DNA from: Candidatus Latescibacterota bacterium
GTDB taxonomy: Bacteria; JAAXHH01; JABIQT01
Length of the DNA stretch: 8,585 nt
Assembly (NCBI GenBank): GCA_018667995.1
Contig: JABIQT010000392.1
Coordinates: forward strand, 1 to 8,585
Direction: 5' to 3'
In this document: positions 219 to 8,512 of the stretch, piece by piece
Numbering within the stretch: the stretch's first letter is position 1
Layout of the letters: each line of letters starts with the position of its first letter
Notes under the pieces: generated by a model
Told to the model about the DNA's origin: nothing
Seen by the model: the letters and a program-made list of their open reading frames with translations, nothing else
The model's database searches: none
Made by a program: the position numbers and the translations under genes

Positions 219-1265
219 TCATATCGCGGTTGCTACCAGATCCCCTACTTCTGTCGTACTGTATCCCATTTTACCGGCTTCCATCGCGTCCATTTTATTT
301 ACTGTCTCAACAATTGCTCGATCCACTGCGACGGCGGCATCGTCCTCGCCCAATTGTGCAATCATCATTTGGCACGCGCCAATGGCGGCGATAGGGTTGA
401 TTCTATTCTTACCAGCATGTCTGGGAGCAGATCCGCCCATAGGCTCAAACATAGAGACACTGTCTGGATTTATATTACCACCAGCCGCCACACCCAAGCC
501 TCCTTGGATGATCGCTCCCAGGTCGGTTATGATATCACCGAACATATTTGTGGTAACGATGACATCGAACCACTCGGGGTTTTTGACCATCCACATACAG
601 GTGGCGTCTACATATGCCGCATCGGTCTCGACATCCGAGTATTCCTCGCCAATTTCGGTGAATACTCTGCGCCACATGTCATGGGCATAGGTGAGCACAT
701 TGCTCTTATGGCAAAGCGTCAGCTTTTTGCGTTTATTACGCTTTCTGGTATATTCAAAGGCATAGCGAATACAGCGCTCAACGCCTTTTCGTGTATTTAT
801 TGATTCCTGAATAGCGACTTCATCATCCGTGCCCTTCTTGAAAACTCCGCCCGCCCCCGTATACAGATCCTCGGTATTCTCACGAATCACGACAAAATCC
901 ACTTCCTCAGGGCCCTTATCCTTCAAAGGGCAGTCCTGGCTACGGTAGAGTTTGACGGGACGTAAATTGATGTACAGATCAAGCTCGAAGCGGGTTTGGA
1001 GGATGATTCCCTTTTCTAGGACACCTTCAGGGGCGTCCGGATGACCGATCGCGCCTAGGAATATAGTGTCAAAGTGGCGAAATTCCTTGAGCGCCTCGGG
1101 CGGCAGAATCTCGCCGGTGCGAGAATAGCGATCGTATCCGAAGTCATATTCTGTGAGTTCATAGGTAAACCCGAATTTCTCGGACGCGGCTTTTAATACC
1201 TTCATGGCTTCACCCGTAACCTCCGGGCCCGTACAGTCTCCTGGTATAACTGCGATCTTGTGCAA
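219..1265 (-). CDS. leuB: 3-isopropylmalate dehydrogenase (beta-decarboxylating dehydrogenase family)
   Basis: This 348-residue cytoplasmic enzyme should oxidise and decarboxylate 3-isopropylmalate to 2-oxoisocaproate, the last step before transamination to leucine. Family marks include an N-terminal GDxxGPE-like motif (GDCTGPE, 9-15) and the substrate segment GVLEKGIILQTR, whose Arg92 is followed by NLRP with Arg102. Arg128 in VIREN, catalytic Tyr135 (ENTEDLYTG), Lys187 (CHKSNVLT), Asp220, and metal ligands Asp244 and Asp248 in GDIITDLG are also present. Position as the last gene after leuA, 25 bases downstream, supports isopropylmalate rather than isocitrate, homoisocitrate or tartrate as substrate. 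Two things are odd. The usual HGSAPDIAG cofactor loop reads GGSAPRHAG (277-285), so the NAD-binding Asp is Arg282 and the next residue is His283. The first motif also has Cys-Thr where Gly-Ile is common. The start is TTG, the first possible start in frame after a stop, with a strong ribosome site. Confidence 0.9.
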   Translation of the reverse strand: MHKIAVIPGDCTGPEVTGEAMKVLKAASEKFGFTYELTEYDFGYDRYSRTGEILPPEALKEFRHFDTIFLGAIGHPDAPEGVLEKGIILQTRFELDLYINLRPVKLYRSQDCPLKDKGPEEVDFVVIRENTEDLYTGAGGVFKKGTDDEVAIQESINTRKGVERCIRYAFEYTRKRNKRKKLTLCHKSNVLTYAHDMWRRVFTEIGEEYSDVETDAAYVDATCMWMVKNPEWFDVIVTTNMFGDIITDLGAIIQGGLGVAAGGNINPDSVSMFEPMGGSAPRHAGKNRINPIAAIGACQMMIAQLGEDDAAVAVDRAIVETVNKMDAMEAGKMGYSTTEVGDLVATAI

Positions 1266-2880: not shown

Positions 2881-3870
2881 CTACTTATCTATCCAACTCA
2901 TCATTTTGCGCAACTCTCTACCGACCTCGACTATCTTGTGCTCAGACGCCTGACGACGCATGGCTCCCATAGTCGGCCGATTGGACTTGTTCTCCAAGAT
3001 CCATTCCTTGGCGAATTGGCCGTCCTGTACTTCCTTGAGTATCTTGCGCATTTCGGCCCGAGTTTCGTCCGTCACGATGCGAGGCCCGCGGGTAAGGTCA
3101 CCATATTCGGCGGTATCACTAATGGAATACCGCATGTGCTCAATGCCGCCCTCATACATCAAATCGACAATAAGCTTCAGTTCATGGAGACATTCAAAGT
3201 ATGCGACTTCGGGTTGATAGCCAGCTTCGACGAGGGTCTCGAATCCAGCAAGTACCAACTCTGTTGTACCGCCGCAGAGAACGGACTGTTCTCCAAATAG
3301 GTCGGTCTCAGTCTCTTCCTGAAAGGTGGTCTCGATGACACCGCCACGAGTGCCGCCGATGCCTTTCGCGTACGCCAATCCGATGTCTCTTGCCTTACCA
3401 GTGGTATCCTGATGCACTGCCAGCAGACAGGGAACTCCTGCGCCTTCCGTGAAAACACGCCGTACTAGATGTCCTGGGCCTTTCGGTGCAACCATGAATA
3501 CGTCTATGTCATCCGGGGCAACGATTTGCCCGAAATGGATATTGAATCCATGTGCGAATGCGATCGCATTTCCGGCAGAGAGGTTCGGTTTAATCTGTGA
3601 CTCATAAAGCTCAGCTTGAAGTTCATCATTCGCCAGCAACATGATCACATCGGCTTCTTTGGAAGCATCGGCGACAGTTCTGGGTTCAAAGCCGTCTTTT
3701 GTTGCCGCATCCCAAGATTTCCCTGGGCGCAACCCAACGATTACATTTAATCCCGATTCCTTCATGTTCAAAGCATGGGCGTGTCCCTGACTCCCGTATC
3801 CAATTACAGCAACAGTCTTACCGTCCAAAATACCGAGGTCCGCATCCTGATCATAATACATCCGCGCCAT
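2881..3870 (-). CDS. ilvC: Ketol-acid reductoisomerase, class I (NADP-type)
   Basis: This 329-residue enzyme isomerises and reduces acetolactate or acetohydroxybutyrate to the dihydroxy acids of valine/leucine and isoleucine synthesis, using Mg2+ and a nicotinamide cofactor. The Rossmann domain (about 1-182) has GYGSQGHA (24-31) and the cofactor loop GLRPGKSW (46-53). Arg48 and Ser52 in this short loop fit NADPH use. Active-site residues are all visible: His107 (AHGFN), Lys130 (PKGPG), Asp190 and Glu194 (DLFGEQ), Glu226 and Glu230 (ECLHELK) and Ser251 (SISDTAEYG). Residues 183-329 form the knotted C-terminal domain. The length is normal for the short class I form. ATG at 3870 is preceded by AAGGAG 8 bases upstream. 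A second ATG three codons in is possible but poorly spaced. ilvN lies 91 bases upstream. Nothing is unusual in the protein. Confidence 0.96.
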
Positions 3871-3961: not shown

Positions 3962-4522
3962 TTAAGCGAGATCGGCCGTAATCTCTTTGCGTTCCTTCTC
4001 CCAGACGGATTCAGGTGCTTCGGGACTAGGCGCATCCTTGCTCTTGAAATCTCGTGCCAGTGCGACCCTTCCTGTTCTCGCCACCTCACGCAAGCCAAAT
4101 GGGCGAAGCATCCCCATGATGGCGTCAATCTTGTCTTCGTTGCCGGTGGCTTCAATGGTCAGTGTTTTCGGACTAATATCTACGATCTTCGCACGAAAAA
4201 TCTCGGATATCTGAACGATCTCCTGACGATTCGCCTGGTTGGCATTTACCTTTATTAGTGCCAACTCACGGTTTATGAAGCTATGATCCGTGAGATCGAC
4301 CACTCGGAGCACATCAATTACTCTGTTGAGCTGCTTGATGATCTGTTCAACGATCATCTCATCGCCTTGAGTAAGAATAGTAATACGCGATGTGCCCGGT
4401 TCAGCCCCCTCCCCGACACTGATGCTGTCGATATTGAACCCGCGACCGCTAAACAGTCCCGCAATTCGGGCTAGCACACCGAATCTATTTTCTACGAGGA
4501 GCGATATGGTATGACGTCTCAT
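3962..4522 (-). CDS. ilvN: Acetolactate synthase, regulatory small subunit
   Basis: This 186-residue subunit activates the IlvB catalytic subunit and, in the family, confers valine feedback. The N-terminal ACT domain (1-75) reads MRRHTISLLVENRFGVLARI and has Asn12, Gly15 and Asn30 at the positions that bind valine in E. coli IlvH, so valine inhibition is likely. The second domain (about 82-158) contains RELALIKV and ends GRVALARDF. A polar tail of about 27 residues (160-186, rich in Lys, Glu, Pro and Ala) makes it longer than the ~163-residue enteric homologue. The frame extends upstream to a GTG at 4609. I chose ATG 4522 because it matches the conserved N-terminus and has GAGGAG 9 bases upstream. 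Followed by ilvC after 91 bases. The family symbol could equally be ilvH. Confidence 0.94.
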   Translation of the reverse strand: MRRHTISLLVENRFGVLARIAGLFSGRGFNIDSISVGEGAEPGTSRITILTQGDEMIVEQIIKQLNRVIDVLRVVDLTDHSFINRELALIKVNANQANRQEIVQISEIFRAKIVDISPKTLTIEATGNEDKIDAIMGMLRPFGLREVARTGRVALARDFKSKDAPSPEAPESVWEKERKEITADLA

Positions 4523-4553
4523 TAACTTTTTCTCCTCAACATTAATATGAAAC

Positions 4554-4614
4554 AGGCCGTGAACAAAACCGAGCTGATCTATTGGCCAGTCTGGTTCGCG
4601 TTTGCCCACGGCCT
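4554..4614 (-). other. Intercistronic hairpin between ilvB and ilvN
   Basis: In minus-strand RNA the arm AGGCCGUGGGCAAA (complement of 4601-4614) pairs with UUUGUUCACGGCCU (complement of 4554-4567): 14 bp with two adjacent G-U pairs, around a 33-base loop. It starts 18 bases past the ilvB stop and ends about 16 bases before the ilvN ribosome site. No U-tract follows. The imperfect pairs would be A-C mismatches on the opposite strand, which fits selection on the transcribed RNA. A role in mRNA stability or in the IlvB:IlvN ratio is inferred. Confidence 0.55.
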
Positions 4615-4632: not shown

Positions 4633-6369
4633 TTATTCTTCAATCATTTCGTGAGAGGCTGCCCCCGCCGGTATCATGGGATAAACATTATCCTCTTCTG
4701 CGATCACAAAATCCATGAGCACAGGACGATCATTAATAGCCATCGCCTCGGAGAGCGCATCTTCAACATCTTCGTCCCTGAACACCCGTATACCTACGGC
4801 GCCAAATGCCTCCGCCAGTTTCACGAAATCAGGATTGGTCTCCTTCAGATCAACGGCTGAATACCTTTTTGCGTAGAACAGATCCTGCCACTGTCGGACC
4901 ATCCCAAGGAAACCGTTGTTGAGCAATATGATCTTAAGAGGAAGTTTACAGGCCATCGCCGTGGCCATCTCTTGGATGTTCATCTGTATGCTGCCGTCAC
5001 CAGTTATCACGACTACATCGGCATCCGGGTAGGCCATTTGAACTCCAATACCAGCAGGAAGTCCAAAACCCATGGTCCCAAGGCCTCCCGAGGTAATCAT
5101 CGTTCGGGGTCTATTAAAGCCATACCATTGCGCAGCCCACATTTGATGTTGCCCGACATCCGTCACTACGTAGGCTTCGCCCTTCGTGGCTTCCCCCACC
5201 TTCTCTAAAACGTATTGGGCCCGAAGAGGCAATTTCTTTGGCGTTTCAACCGGCTGGTCATCGCGACCGTTGAGACCTTCCTCATGGACCGAGTCCGTAC
5301 TATCGTAAGTAAGCGGATGTTCCTGCTTCCAATTGTTGATTCGTTTGAGCCAATCTTCAGTATCGGCACGCTCGACGAGCGGTATCAACTGTTTTAGAAC
5401 ATGCTTTACATCCCCAACGATGGGAAGGTCTACAATCACATTCTTATTCATGGAAGACGGATCTATATCGATATGGATCTTCTTCGAGTTCTGAGAAAAC
5501 TCATCCAGATTACCTGTGACACGGTCATCGAACCTTGCACCGATATTTACCAGGAGATCACATTCCATTACTGCCGTATTGGCGAACCAGGTACCATGCA
5601 TGCCAAGCATTTTCATAGAAAGCTCATGAGACTCCGGAAATGCCCCTAAGCCCATCAGCGTTGTCGTGACAGGTGCTGCCGCCTTCACTGCCAGTTGCTG
5701 AATTTCTTCTGCGGCTCCGGAAATGATTGCGCCACCTCCGACATACAGCACAGGTTTTTTTGCCGCGGTTATCATTTCTGCGGCCTTCTTTATCTGGCCG
5801 GGATGCCCGTCATAGTTGGGCTTATACCCTCTGATTTGTGGTCGTTCCGGATACTCGAATTTCGCCGTCCCAACCTGGACATCTTTGGGCAGGTCTATCA
5901 GGACGGGACCGGGGCGACCTGTTGTCGCTATGAAGAAGGCTTCAGCAATTACCTGTGCTACGTCTTCTGTCTCTTTAATAAGAAAGTTGTGTTTGGTGAT
6001 GGGCCGTGTAATTCCCACGGTATCGGATTCTTGAAACGCATCGTTTCCAATGAGGTGAACCGGAACCTGACCTGTGAAGACTACCATGGGAATTGAATCC
6101 ATGTAGGCGGTGGCAATACCAGTAACCGTATTGGTCGCGCCTGGCCCCGAGGAGGCGATCACGACTCCAGGTTTTCCCGTCGCTCTTGCATATCCATCGG
6201 CCATGTGGGTCGCGCCCTGCTCATGCCTAACCAGGACGTGGCGGATTTCTGGGGTTCGCTGGAGCACATCATATAGCGGGATAACTACACCGCCGGGATA
6301 GCCGAATACGAGATCCACACCTTCGCGTTTCAAGGACTCGGTTAAGATCTCAGCACCGGTCAATTCCAT
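4633..6369 (-). CDS. ilvB: Acetolactate (acetohydroxyacid) synthase, catalytic large subunit
   Basis: This 578-residue thiamine diphosphate and FAD enzyme condenses pyruvate with pyruvate or 2-oxobutyrate, the first common step of branched-chain synthesis. The N-terminal PYR domain (about 1-165) carries GYPGG and catalytic Glu50 (RHEQGA). The middle FAD-binding domain spans roughly 190-330. The C-terminal domain has the ThDP motif GDGSIQMN (457-464) with Asn484-Asn485 and ends [15 protein letters not shown]. Positions where inhibitor-resistance changes are known in homologues keep the usual residues Ala78 (SSGPGATN), Pro103 (TGQVP) and Trp494 (RQWQD). The frame extends upstream to ATG 6456. 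I reject that start because it lies upstream of the predicted -10 box and the added 29 residues do not resemble the family. ATG 6369 gives the canonical MELTGAEIL start with AAGGAG 8 bases upstream. It is the first gene of the operon; ilvN follows after 110 bases. Confidence 0.96.
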
Positions 6370-6447
6370 CTCCCAACTCCTTTGTATTTTACGTCTAAAT
6401 TTCAGGTCATTAAATCGGTATATTGTAGCAACTGATAAAGTTGCCCT

Positions 6448-6475
6448 AAGATACATCGCCGCATGGTGATGTCAA
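6448..6475 (-). promoter_or_regulatory. Predicted sigma70-type promoter of the ilv-leu operon
   Basis: On the minus strand a perfect TTGACA (6475-6470) is followed after 16 bases by TATCTT (6453-6448, 4 of 6 consensus positions). Transcription would begin near 6440, giving a leader of about 70 bases before ilvB. That leader shows no leader peptide rich in Leu, Ile or Val, no T-box and no terminator hairpin, so control is probably at initiation. Confidence 0.6.
6453..6472. promoter_or_regulatory. Candidate operator in the ilvB promoter spacer
   Basis: ACATCGCC-GCAT-GGTGATGT is an inverted repeat with 8-base arms matching at 7 of 8 positions. It fills the space between the -35 and -10 boxes of the predicted ilvB promoter. 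A dimeric repressor here could block RNA polymerase, possibly in response to branched-chain amino acids. Which protein binds is unknown. Confidence 0.4.
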
Positions 6476-6623: not shown

Positions 6624-7310
6624 GTGGCACGTCGTCGAATTACCCGCCGTGAAATCAAAGAAGATAGATTCATTCAGTTCATCTATAGTGCCAATGACTA
6701 TATCGCCGGTCACGTCCAAGAGATACTGATCGGAGTTGGAGTTGTTGTAATAGCGTCAGTTGCAGGGGCCTGGTTCGCCAATTCCAGGCAGGCCTCAGAT
6801 GAAGCTGCCGCTCGTCTGTTGGCGCCCGCACAAACTGCCATGCAAAACAACAGAACTGAGGATGCGATCCCGATCTATCAAAGAATTCTGACGGATCATG
6901 GTGGCGCCGAAGGTTCACGCGAGGCAACACTAGGATTGGCTAACGCTTTCTTCCGAACCGGCAACACCGATGAAGCCAAACGATACTATGAGAAATACAT
7001 TTCTGATTATGGATCCGGGTTTTTTGGAGGCGGGTCCGATGCGGACGTCGTCCTATTGGGTGCGGAATCTGGCGTAGCAGCTTGTGAGGAACAGGAAGGG
7101 AAATACCTTGAGGCGGCGATCCAGTATAGGACGCTTGCAGAGACTCACCCCGATGTATTTCTTGCCCCGCAGTTCTTGATTGATGCTGGAAGGTGTTATC
7201 AGGCAGCCGAACGCACAAGTGACGCCCGGAGCATGTACGAGAAAGTAGTATCCGACTACGAGGACTCACGTTATGTACGGGATGCGAGAGCCGCGTTGAC
7301 CATGCTATAA
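6624..7310 (+). CDS. Membrane-anchored tetratricopeptide repeat protein (YfgM-like layout)
   Basis: This 228-residue protein has a short basic cytoplasmic N-terminus (ARRRITRREIKEDR), one membrane span at about 33-52 (ILIGVGVVVIASVAGAWFA) and a C-terminal part that should lie outside the cytoplasm. That part shows four TPR-like helical pairs, at about 60-93, 97-130, 143-176 and 180-213. Their usual signatures are visible: AIPIYQRIL, LANAFFRTGNTDEAKRYYEKY, YLEAAIQYRTLAETHP and ARSMYEKVVSDY. A glycine-rich insert (GSGFFGGGSD, 130-139) separates repeats two and three. The plan resembles E. coli YfgM (206 residues), which works with the SecYEG translocon and PpiD, but similarity in layout does not prove that role. 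A scaffold or envelope function is inferred. The positive N-terminus fits an N-in, C-out anchor. GTG is chosen from its GGAGG. The aminotransferase follows after 38 bases, probably in one transcript. Confidence 0.8.
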   Translation: MARRRITRREIKEDRFIQFIYSANDYIAGHVQEILIGVGVVVIASVAGAWFANSRQASDEAAARLLAPAQTAMQNNRTEDAIPIYQRILTDHGGAEGSREATLGLANAFFRTGNTDEAKRYYEKYISDYGSGFFGGGSDADVVLLGAESGVAACEEQEGKYLEAAIQYRTLAETHPDVFLAPQFLIDAGRCYQAAERTSDARSMYEKVVSDYEDSRYVRDARAALTML

Positions 7311-7348: not shown

Positions 7349-8512
7349 TTGAAGTCCTATAATTTTGCCCCTGGGCCTACTCCGGTAACGGCGGAAGTAA
7401 CGGCAGCAATGTCCAGGCCGATATTGACGCATAGGTCCGCCGAATTCAGTGCCATGCTTCGCGAAGTTTCAGACGGTCTTAGGTATCTCTTCCAGACGAA
7501 AAACGATGTGTTGACTTTGACGTCGTCGGGATCCGGTGCCATGGAGGCCACAATAGTCAACTTGCTGTCACCTGGCGACAAGGTCTTGGCTATAGTTTCA
7601 GGAAAATTCGGAGCCCGGTGGGTAGAGTTGTGTGACGTTTACGGCGTGGATGTTATCGCTATCGATGTGCCCTGGGGAGAGGCCGTAAATATCGATGTAG
7701 TTGCTAATTCGCTACAGACAAATGACAATATCAAAGCCATTCTGTCTACACATAGCGAAACATCGACGGGCGTGTTGCATGACATTGAGGCACTGGGAGC
7801 GCTGGCCCGAGAACGAGACGTTCTACTGATCGTTGACGCGGTGAGTGGATTGGGTGCGAACGACCTAAGAACAGATGCCTGGGGTGTTGATGTGGTCGTC
7901 ACCGGCTCACAGAAAGGCCTCATGCTACCTCCAGGACTCGCATTCGTGAGCGTTAGCCAACGTGCATGGCGTGCCTCGGAGACGTCACGAAATCCCCGGT
8001 ATTACTTCAGCTTCGACCGTGCGAAATCCTCGCTCGAAAAAGGACTGACCCCTTATACGCCGGCAGTTTCCTTGCTCATGGGGCTTGCTGAGATTCTTCA
8101 TGAGATTCAGAGAATCGGTCTCGAAACGATTTTCGCTCACCATGCCGTGATGGCTGGTGCCACTCGGGCAGCTACCAGAGCCATGGGCCTGGAGCTTTTC
8201 GCTAAGACACCATCAAACGTATTGACATCGGTTAAGATGCCAGAAGGTATCGACGGTGGAGAACTGCTGAAACATATGAAGCAGTGCTACGGCGTAACCA
8301 TCGCGAATGGGATGGAGCAATACAAAGGAAAGACGATAAGGATCGCCCACCTTGGGTATGCCGTTGACGCCTTCGACATGATCATTGCCGTCTCCGCACT
8401 TGAACGGGGCCTTGCGTTTTTCGGGCACAATTTTGAACTGGGATCCGGCCTGTCCGCAATCCAACAGTTCCTCCATATGTCAGAGACAATTGATCGTGCA
8501 AGTGCAGGTTAG
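7349..8512 (+). CDS. Class V PLP aminotransferase (alanine-glyoxylate / serine-pyruvate type)
   Basis: This 387-residue cytoplasmic enzyme has aminotransferase fold type I, class V. Visible marks are NFAPGPTPV (5-13), THRSAEF (27-33), the phosphate-binding SSGSGAMEA (59-67), Asp163 in VDAVSG (pairs with the PLP pyridine nitrogen), Lys189 in TGSQKGLMLPPG (Schiff-base lysine) and Arg331 in TIRIAHLG (substrate carboxylate). The family includes alanine-glyoxylate, serine-pyruvate, serine-glyoxylate, ureidoglycine-glyoxylate and phosphoserine-type transaminases. Sequence alone does not choose between them, so I give no symbol. In some bacteria relatives stand beside serA and serve serine synthesis; whether serA follows here is not visible. 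It could supply glycine or serine, or use pyruvate, which is also the substrate of the divergent ilvB. The start is TTG with a strong ribosome site. A terminator stem begins 4 bases after the stop. Confidence 0.88.
   Translation: MKSYNFAPGPTPVTAEVTAAMSRPILTHRSAEFSAMLREVSDGLRYLFQTKNDVLTLTSSGSGAMEATIVNLLSPGDKVLAIVSGKFGARWVELCDVYGVDVIAIDVPWGEAVNIDVVANSLQTNDNIKAILSTHSETSTGVLHDIEALGALARERDVLLIVDAVSGLGANDLRTDAWGVDVVVTGSQKGLMLPPGLAFVSVSQRAWRASETSRNPRYYFSFDRAKSSLEKGLTPYTPAVSLLMGLAEILHEIQRIGLETIFAHHAVMAGATRAATRAMGLELFAKTPSNVLTSVKMPEGIDGGELLKHMKQCYGVTIANGMEQYKGKTIRIAHLGYAVDAFDMIIAVSALERGLAFFGHNFELGSGLSAIQQFLHMSETIDRASAG

Follow-up and report, generated by a model that had tools for sequence, protein, structure and literature searches.

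The stretch of DNA analyzed here (the window, 8,585 nucleotides of a Candidatus Latescibacterota contig) carries on its minus strand the genes ilvB-ilvN-ilvC-leuA-leuB, in that order. The last of these, leuB (219-1265, minus strand), starts with TTG and encodes a 348-residue 3-isopropylmalate dehydrogenase of the NF002898 (PRK03437) type. Profile searches placed leuA (2-isopropylmalate synthase; 1291-2823) directly upstream of it, preceded by ilvC (ketol-acid reductoisomerase; 2881-3870) with a GLRPGKSW cofactor loop, and by ilvN (3962-4609) and ilvB (4633-6456), which encode the small and large subunits of acetolactate synthase and whose true starts may both lie further in. All of these are on the minus strand, as is a candidate terminator-like element just downstream of leuB (148-180), a 13-bp perfect inverted repeat (148-160 and 168-180) read from the sequence. 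The plus strand encodes a TPR-type protein resembling YbgF/BamD, which scores below the cut-off and is divergent from ilvB (6624-7310), and a class V aminotransferase resembling BhcA (aspartate-glyoxylate; 7349-8512), whose 342.6 bits are well below the cut-off of 650. No Rfam family reached threshold anywhere in the window. The genome, which is 85% complete, has the window leuB as its single PF00180 gene; leuD and a leuC that is apparently split over two contigs are found elsewhere in it.

Translation of leuB confirmed that the cofactor-selecting loop reads GGSAPRHAG at residues 277-285 (411-437, minus strand), inside the segment 406-456 to which an earlier note had drawn attention. R282 is encoded by AGA and H283 by CAT, and we infer that each codon is one transition away from AAA (Lys) and TAT (Tyr), respectively. 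When the window LeuB was aligned with its relatives and with LeuB and Icd of E. coli, R282 fell on LeuB D289 and Icd K344, and H283 on LeuB I290 and Icd Y345. The note was therefore right to place Arg-His at the site of Asp-Ile and to name the Lys-Tyr of NADP-dependent isocitrate dehydrogenase (ICDH) as the equivalent pair. A third cofactor determinant, I289 (399-401, minus strand), occupies the position of LeuB A296 and Icd V351. At the three determinants the window has R/H/I, its clade K/Y/I, the LeuB controls D/I/A and NADP-Icd K344/Y345/V351. The Asp that characterizes NAD-type LeuBs at the adenosine-ribose position is replaced by Arg282 in the window and by Lys or Arg in 80 of 80 relatives. 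The basic-aromatic pair typical of the NADP enzymes is present, with Arg in place of Lys and an imidazole in place of a phenol.

In E. coli IDH, the residues that contact NADP include Lys344, Tyr345, Tyr391, Arg395 and Arg292' (PMC8623467). The last three have no basic or aromatic equivalent in the window LeuB, where the alignment, gapped and less sure in its C-terminal part, places N323, A327 and N229. The position of Icd R395 is adjoined by D326 (288-290, minus strand), which is Lys in 65 of the 80 clade members. Among the changes that switch E. coli LeuB to NADP are D289K, I290Y and A296V (Miller et al. 2006, tabulated in PMC5817062), which match the natural K-Y-I of the clade; the engineered enzyme is a laboratory construct, however, and its further changes D236R and G337Y are not shared by the clade. 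Its A229T and L248M match T222 and M241 of the window, but this was given no weight, because Met also occurs there in ordinary Asp-Ile LeuBs.

The distribution of the pair was determined by scanning named genomes with the patterns VDATCMW and MVKNPEW, both of which lie outside the loop. The best-scoring 80 of at least 570 loci were kept, and more distant members may carry other states. Lys-Tyr was found in 77 of these 80 loci and Arg-Tyr in the remaining three, all from Poribacteria; none has Asp, and the third determinant is Ile or Val in every one. The loci come from about ten phyla: Latescibacterota, Poribacteria, Thermodesulfobacteriota and other Deltaproteobacteria, Armatimonadota, Spirochaetota, Omnitrophota, Planctomycetota (Scalindua), Bacillota, Acidobacteriota and others. 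Of 118 genomes drawn from the Syntrophus phylum, 68 have a protein above the NF002898 cut-off; 30 loci were read there, and every one has Lys-Tyr (one of them is from a Syntrophus genome already in the named scan). Orthologues from the order of the window (L033-L045, L048) all read GGSAPKY. The three Poribacterial genes (L065, 909-1958; L134, 1575-2624; L139, 6001-7050) read HGSAPRYTG, and their Arg-Tyr is intermediate between Lys-Tyr and the Arg-His of the window. Judged by sequence, the window LeuB is part of a widespread, uncharacterised bacterial LeuB clade, and its pair is shared in kind and not unique to this genome. This agrees with the guess in the earlier note that basic residues might be clade-wide, with the refinement that Lys-Tyr is the state of the clade and Arg-His a local derivative. 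When the window leuB is compared with its relative L033 over 320 codons, the differences at codon positions 1, 2 and 3 number 60, 40 and 194; these values indicate that the ORF is under purifying selection. Since a basic-aromatic pair occupies this site throughout the clade and the ORF is selected in this way, the pair in the loop is more than chance.

Phylogenetic analysis separated these enzymes from the ICDHs. In a careful tree of 38 rows, from which the loop columns were left out, the LeuBs with KY, RY or RH form one clade (support 100/99.9), and its sister is actinobacterial LeuB, which keeps Asp-Ile. A joint clade of the basic-loop LeuBs and the KY ICDHs was rejected (p-AU 9e-7), which implies that LeuB and ICDH acquired the pair independently, by convergence. 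The window sequence nests with the KY sequences of its own order (99/98), and the simplest explanation is therefore that its Arg-His goes back to Lys-Tyr. A quick tree of 122 rows gave the same picture. A close parallel among known ICDHs is that of T. thermophilus (PDB 2d1c), whose loop GSAPKYAGKNVINP is nearly identical to the clade's GSAPKYTGKNVINP, although it is an isocitrate enzyme of another subfamily. E. coli NADP-Icd also shares the basic-aromatic pair and the hydrophobic residue at V351, but it belongs to a separate clade, and its S113, N115, Y391, R395 and R292' are absent from the window LeuB.

These data suggest that the clade has replaced the NAD-selecting Asp-Ile-Ala by an NADP-ICDH-like Lys-Tyr-Ile, with Arg-His-Ile as a local form, and that its members are probably functional LeuBs that use NADP, either preferentially or at least as dual enzymes. 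Basic residue 282 would pair with the adenosine 2'-phosphate and residue 283 would form a hydrogen bond to it, while the loss of Asp would remove a clash. Without Asp, and with the basic-aromatic pair and a larger residue at 289, the loop would most likely be able to accommodate the NADP 2'-phosphate; the T. thermophilus ICDH loop and the engineered E. coli LeuB are precedents for this. The GLRPGKSW loop of the window IlvC resembles those of KARIs named as NADP(+) enzymes, and because of this resemblance an NADP-linked LeuB could return NADPH to IlvC. In this plausible scheme, LeuB would produce NADPH to balance what IlvC, encoded in the same operon, consumes. The data show the sequence itself, its homology, the equivalence of the residues, their conservation in the clade, the convergent origin and the operon and pathway setting; from these we infer the cofactor preference, the contact with the 2'-phosphate and the redox coupling.

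The window member itself is unusually divergent. No other row differs from the clade at so many of its conserved sites (16 of 165, median 2); the changes include G11C, K282R, Y283H and T284A, and the window sequence sits on a long end branch in both the 122-row and the 38-row tree. Residue 11 (1233-1235, minus strand) is Cys, whereas Gly is found there in 80 of 80 relatives as part of a GDGTGPE/GDGIGPE motif. The window enzyme has also lost K326, a basic residue found close to the region of Icd R395 in most clade members. The three adjacent changes in the loop (282-284) were considered as a sign of selection on the loop, but with 16 changed sites they are not clearly beyond chance. The cofactor preference of the window enzyme could differ from that of the clade, and H283, A284 and D326 may weaken or shift its cofactor binding. 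One alternative is accordingly that the clade is of the NADP type while the window enzyme has drifted under relaxed or changed selection, and is now dual or partly back to NAD. The many departures, D326 and the long branch are in its favor; we nevertheless regard it as unlikely, since Arg retains the positive charge and also occurs in the Poribacterial relatives, position 282 has not reverted to an acidic residue, and the codon changes point to purifying selection.

It is equally doubtful that the whole clade is still NAD-dependent, with Lys-Tyr serving a structural role or binding another ligand. The missing equivalents of Y391, R395 and R292' would fit such a view, as does the fact that the familiar LeuBs are NAD enzymes. 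Against it stand the absence, from every member examined, of the Asp that binds the adenosine ribose in NAD-LeuBs, and the finding that three linked determinants have changed together and are fixed over many phyla.

The LeuB protein of the window scores 494.8 bits against NF002898 (3-isopropylmalate dehydrogenase; cut-off 393) and 256.5 bits against the classical leuB model TIGR00169 (cut-off 353.2). Alignment showed that the catalytic and substrate residues of LeuB are all kept (R92, R102, R128, Y135, K187, D220, D244, D248), that the hydrophobic isopropyl pocket consists of E84/I87/I88, and that the Icd substrate residues S113 and N115 are replaced in LeuB-like fashion by G86 and I88. An AlphaFold model is good overall (pLDDT 88), but with pLDDT below 50 at residues 283-285 its cofactor loop is of low confidence, which weighs against the NADP reading. 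The predicted fold is closest to M. tuberculosis LeuB (Rv2995c, PDB 1w0d; Z 43.7, rmsd 1.8, 332 residues), with 48% identity over the structural alignment and a substrate loop of equal length; the loop HGSAPDIAG of that enzyme, however, has Asp-Ile in the NAD arrangement. The second-best match is tartrate dehydrogenase from Pseudomonas putida (PDB 3flk; Z 43.2), which differs in having Asp at the cofactor position (HGSAPDIFG) and another substrate loop. That the enzyme is instead an NADP-using isocitrate, tartrate or malate-type dehydrogenase, for which the TIGR00169 score and this second match could be cited, is very improbable in view of the NF002898 score, the G86 and I88 substitutions, the best match to a LeuB, the location in leu/ilv operons and the lack of any other PF00180 gene in the genome.

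The genomic context points in the same direction. Of the 80 relatives, 36 have one or more of leuA, leuC, leuD, cimA or an ilv gene in their vicinity; many of these relatives are on short contigs. A protein above the canonical leuB cut-off occurs in only 4 of 40 clade genomes, a count limited by the incompleteness of the MAGs: these are two Smithella genomes, where it is a true Asp-Ile LeuB, and two window relatives, where it is a divergent SANDIEGK/SANDIEGR paralogue. The conserved catalytic residues, the leuA/leuC/leuD/cimA neighbours and the missing canonical LeuB in 36 of 40 genomes thus support the view that the window gene encodes a functional 3-isopropylmalate dehydrogenase of the leucine pathway, with putative activity on 3-isopropylmalate. 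Several related arrangements were noted. The Smithella genomes G097 and G098 (L146, L147) encode a Lys-Tyr LeuB alongside the canonical Asp-Ile enzyme. Genome G012 has a second Lys-Tyr copy in the order leuC-leuD-leuB-citramalate synthase (L048, 1-4047), which suggests one LeuB serving the leucine and isoleucine routes. In the order of the window, L018-L027, L148 and L149 carry the divergent LeuB-like paralogue with GSANDIEGK and with ANLRQ replacing ANLRP; in the same genomes L046 and L049-L060 carry a paralogue with GSAFELIGK (Glu/Asp then Leu at the cofactor site) that groups near tartrate dehydrogenases.

Natural LeuBs are generally taken as NAD enzymes, and to our knowledge NADP use by LeuB is known only from engineered forms. 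Miller and colleagues (in Science, 2006) reportedly argued from their engineered NADP-LeuB that an adaptive constraint, inhibition by NADPH, keeps LeuB NAD-dependent. A literature search, with most subscription papers outside its reach, found no report of a natural NADP-dependent isopropylmalate dehydrogenase. The present analysis suggests that these bacteria may use NADP in place of NAD to make leucine. It seems somewhat likely that the clade is a natural, multi-phylum lineage of NADP-dependent LeuBs with an origin independent of NADP-ICDH, which would make leucine, and probably isoleucine by the citramalate route, without NAD at the LeuB step; this would argue against a universal counter-selection of NADP. 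A large natural clade with NADP determinants offers enzymes for a direct test of the published argument for NAD constraint, and a natural cofactor switch that can be compared with the engineered one; the Asp-Ile and Lys-Tyr LeuBs of Smithella form a natural pair for comparing cofactors. The clade may also offer a way to make leucine production redox-balanced. If the proposed NADP use is true, the assumption of an NAD-based LeuB in metabolic models would be wrong for many, mostly uncultivated bacteria.
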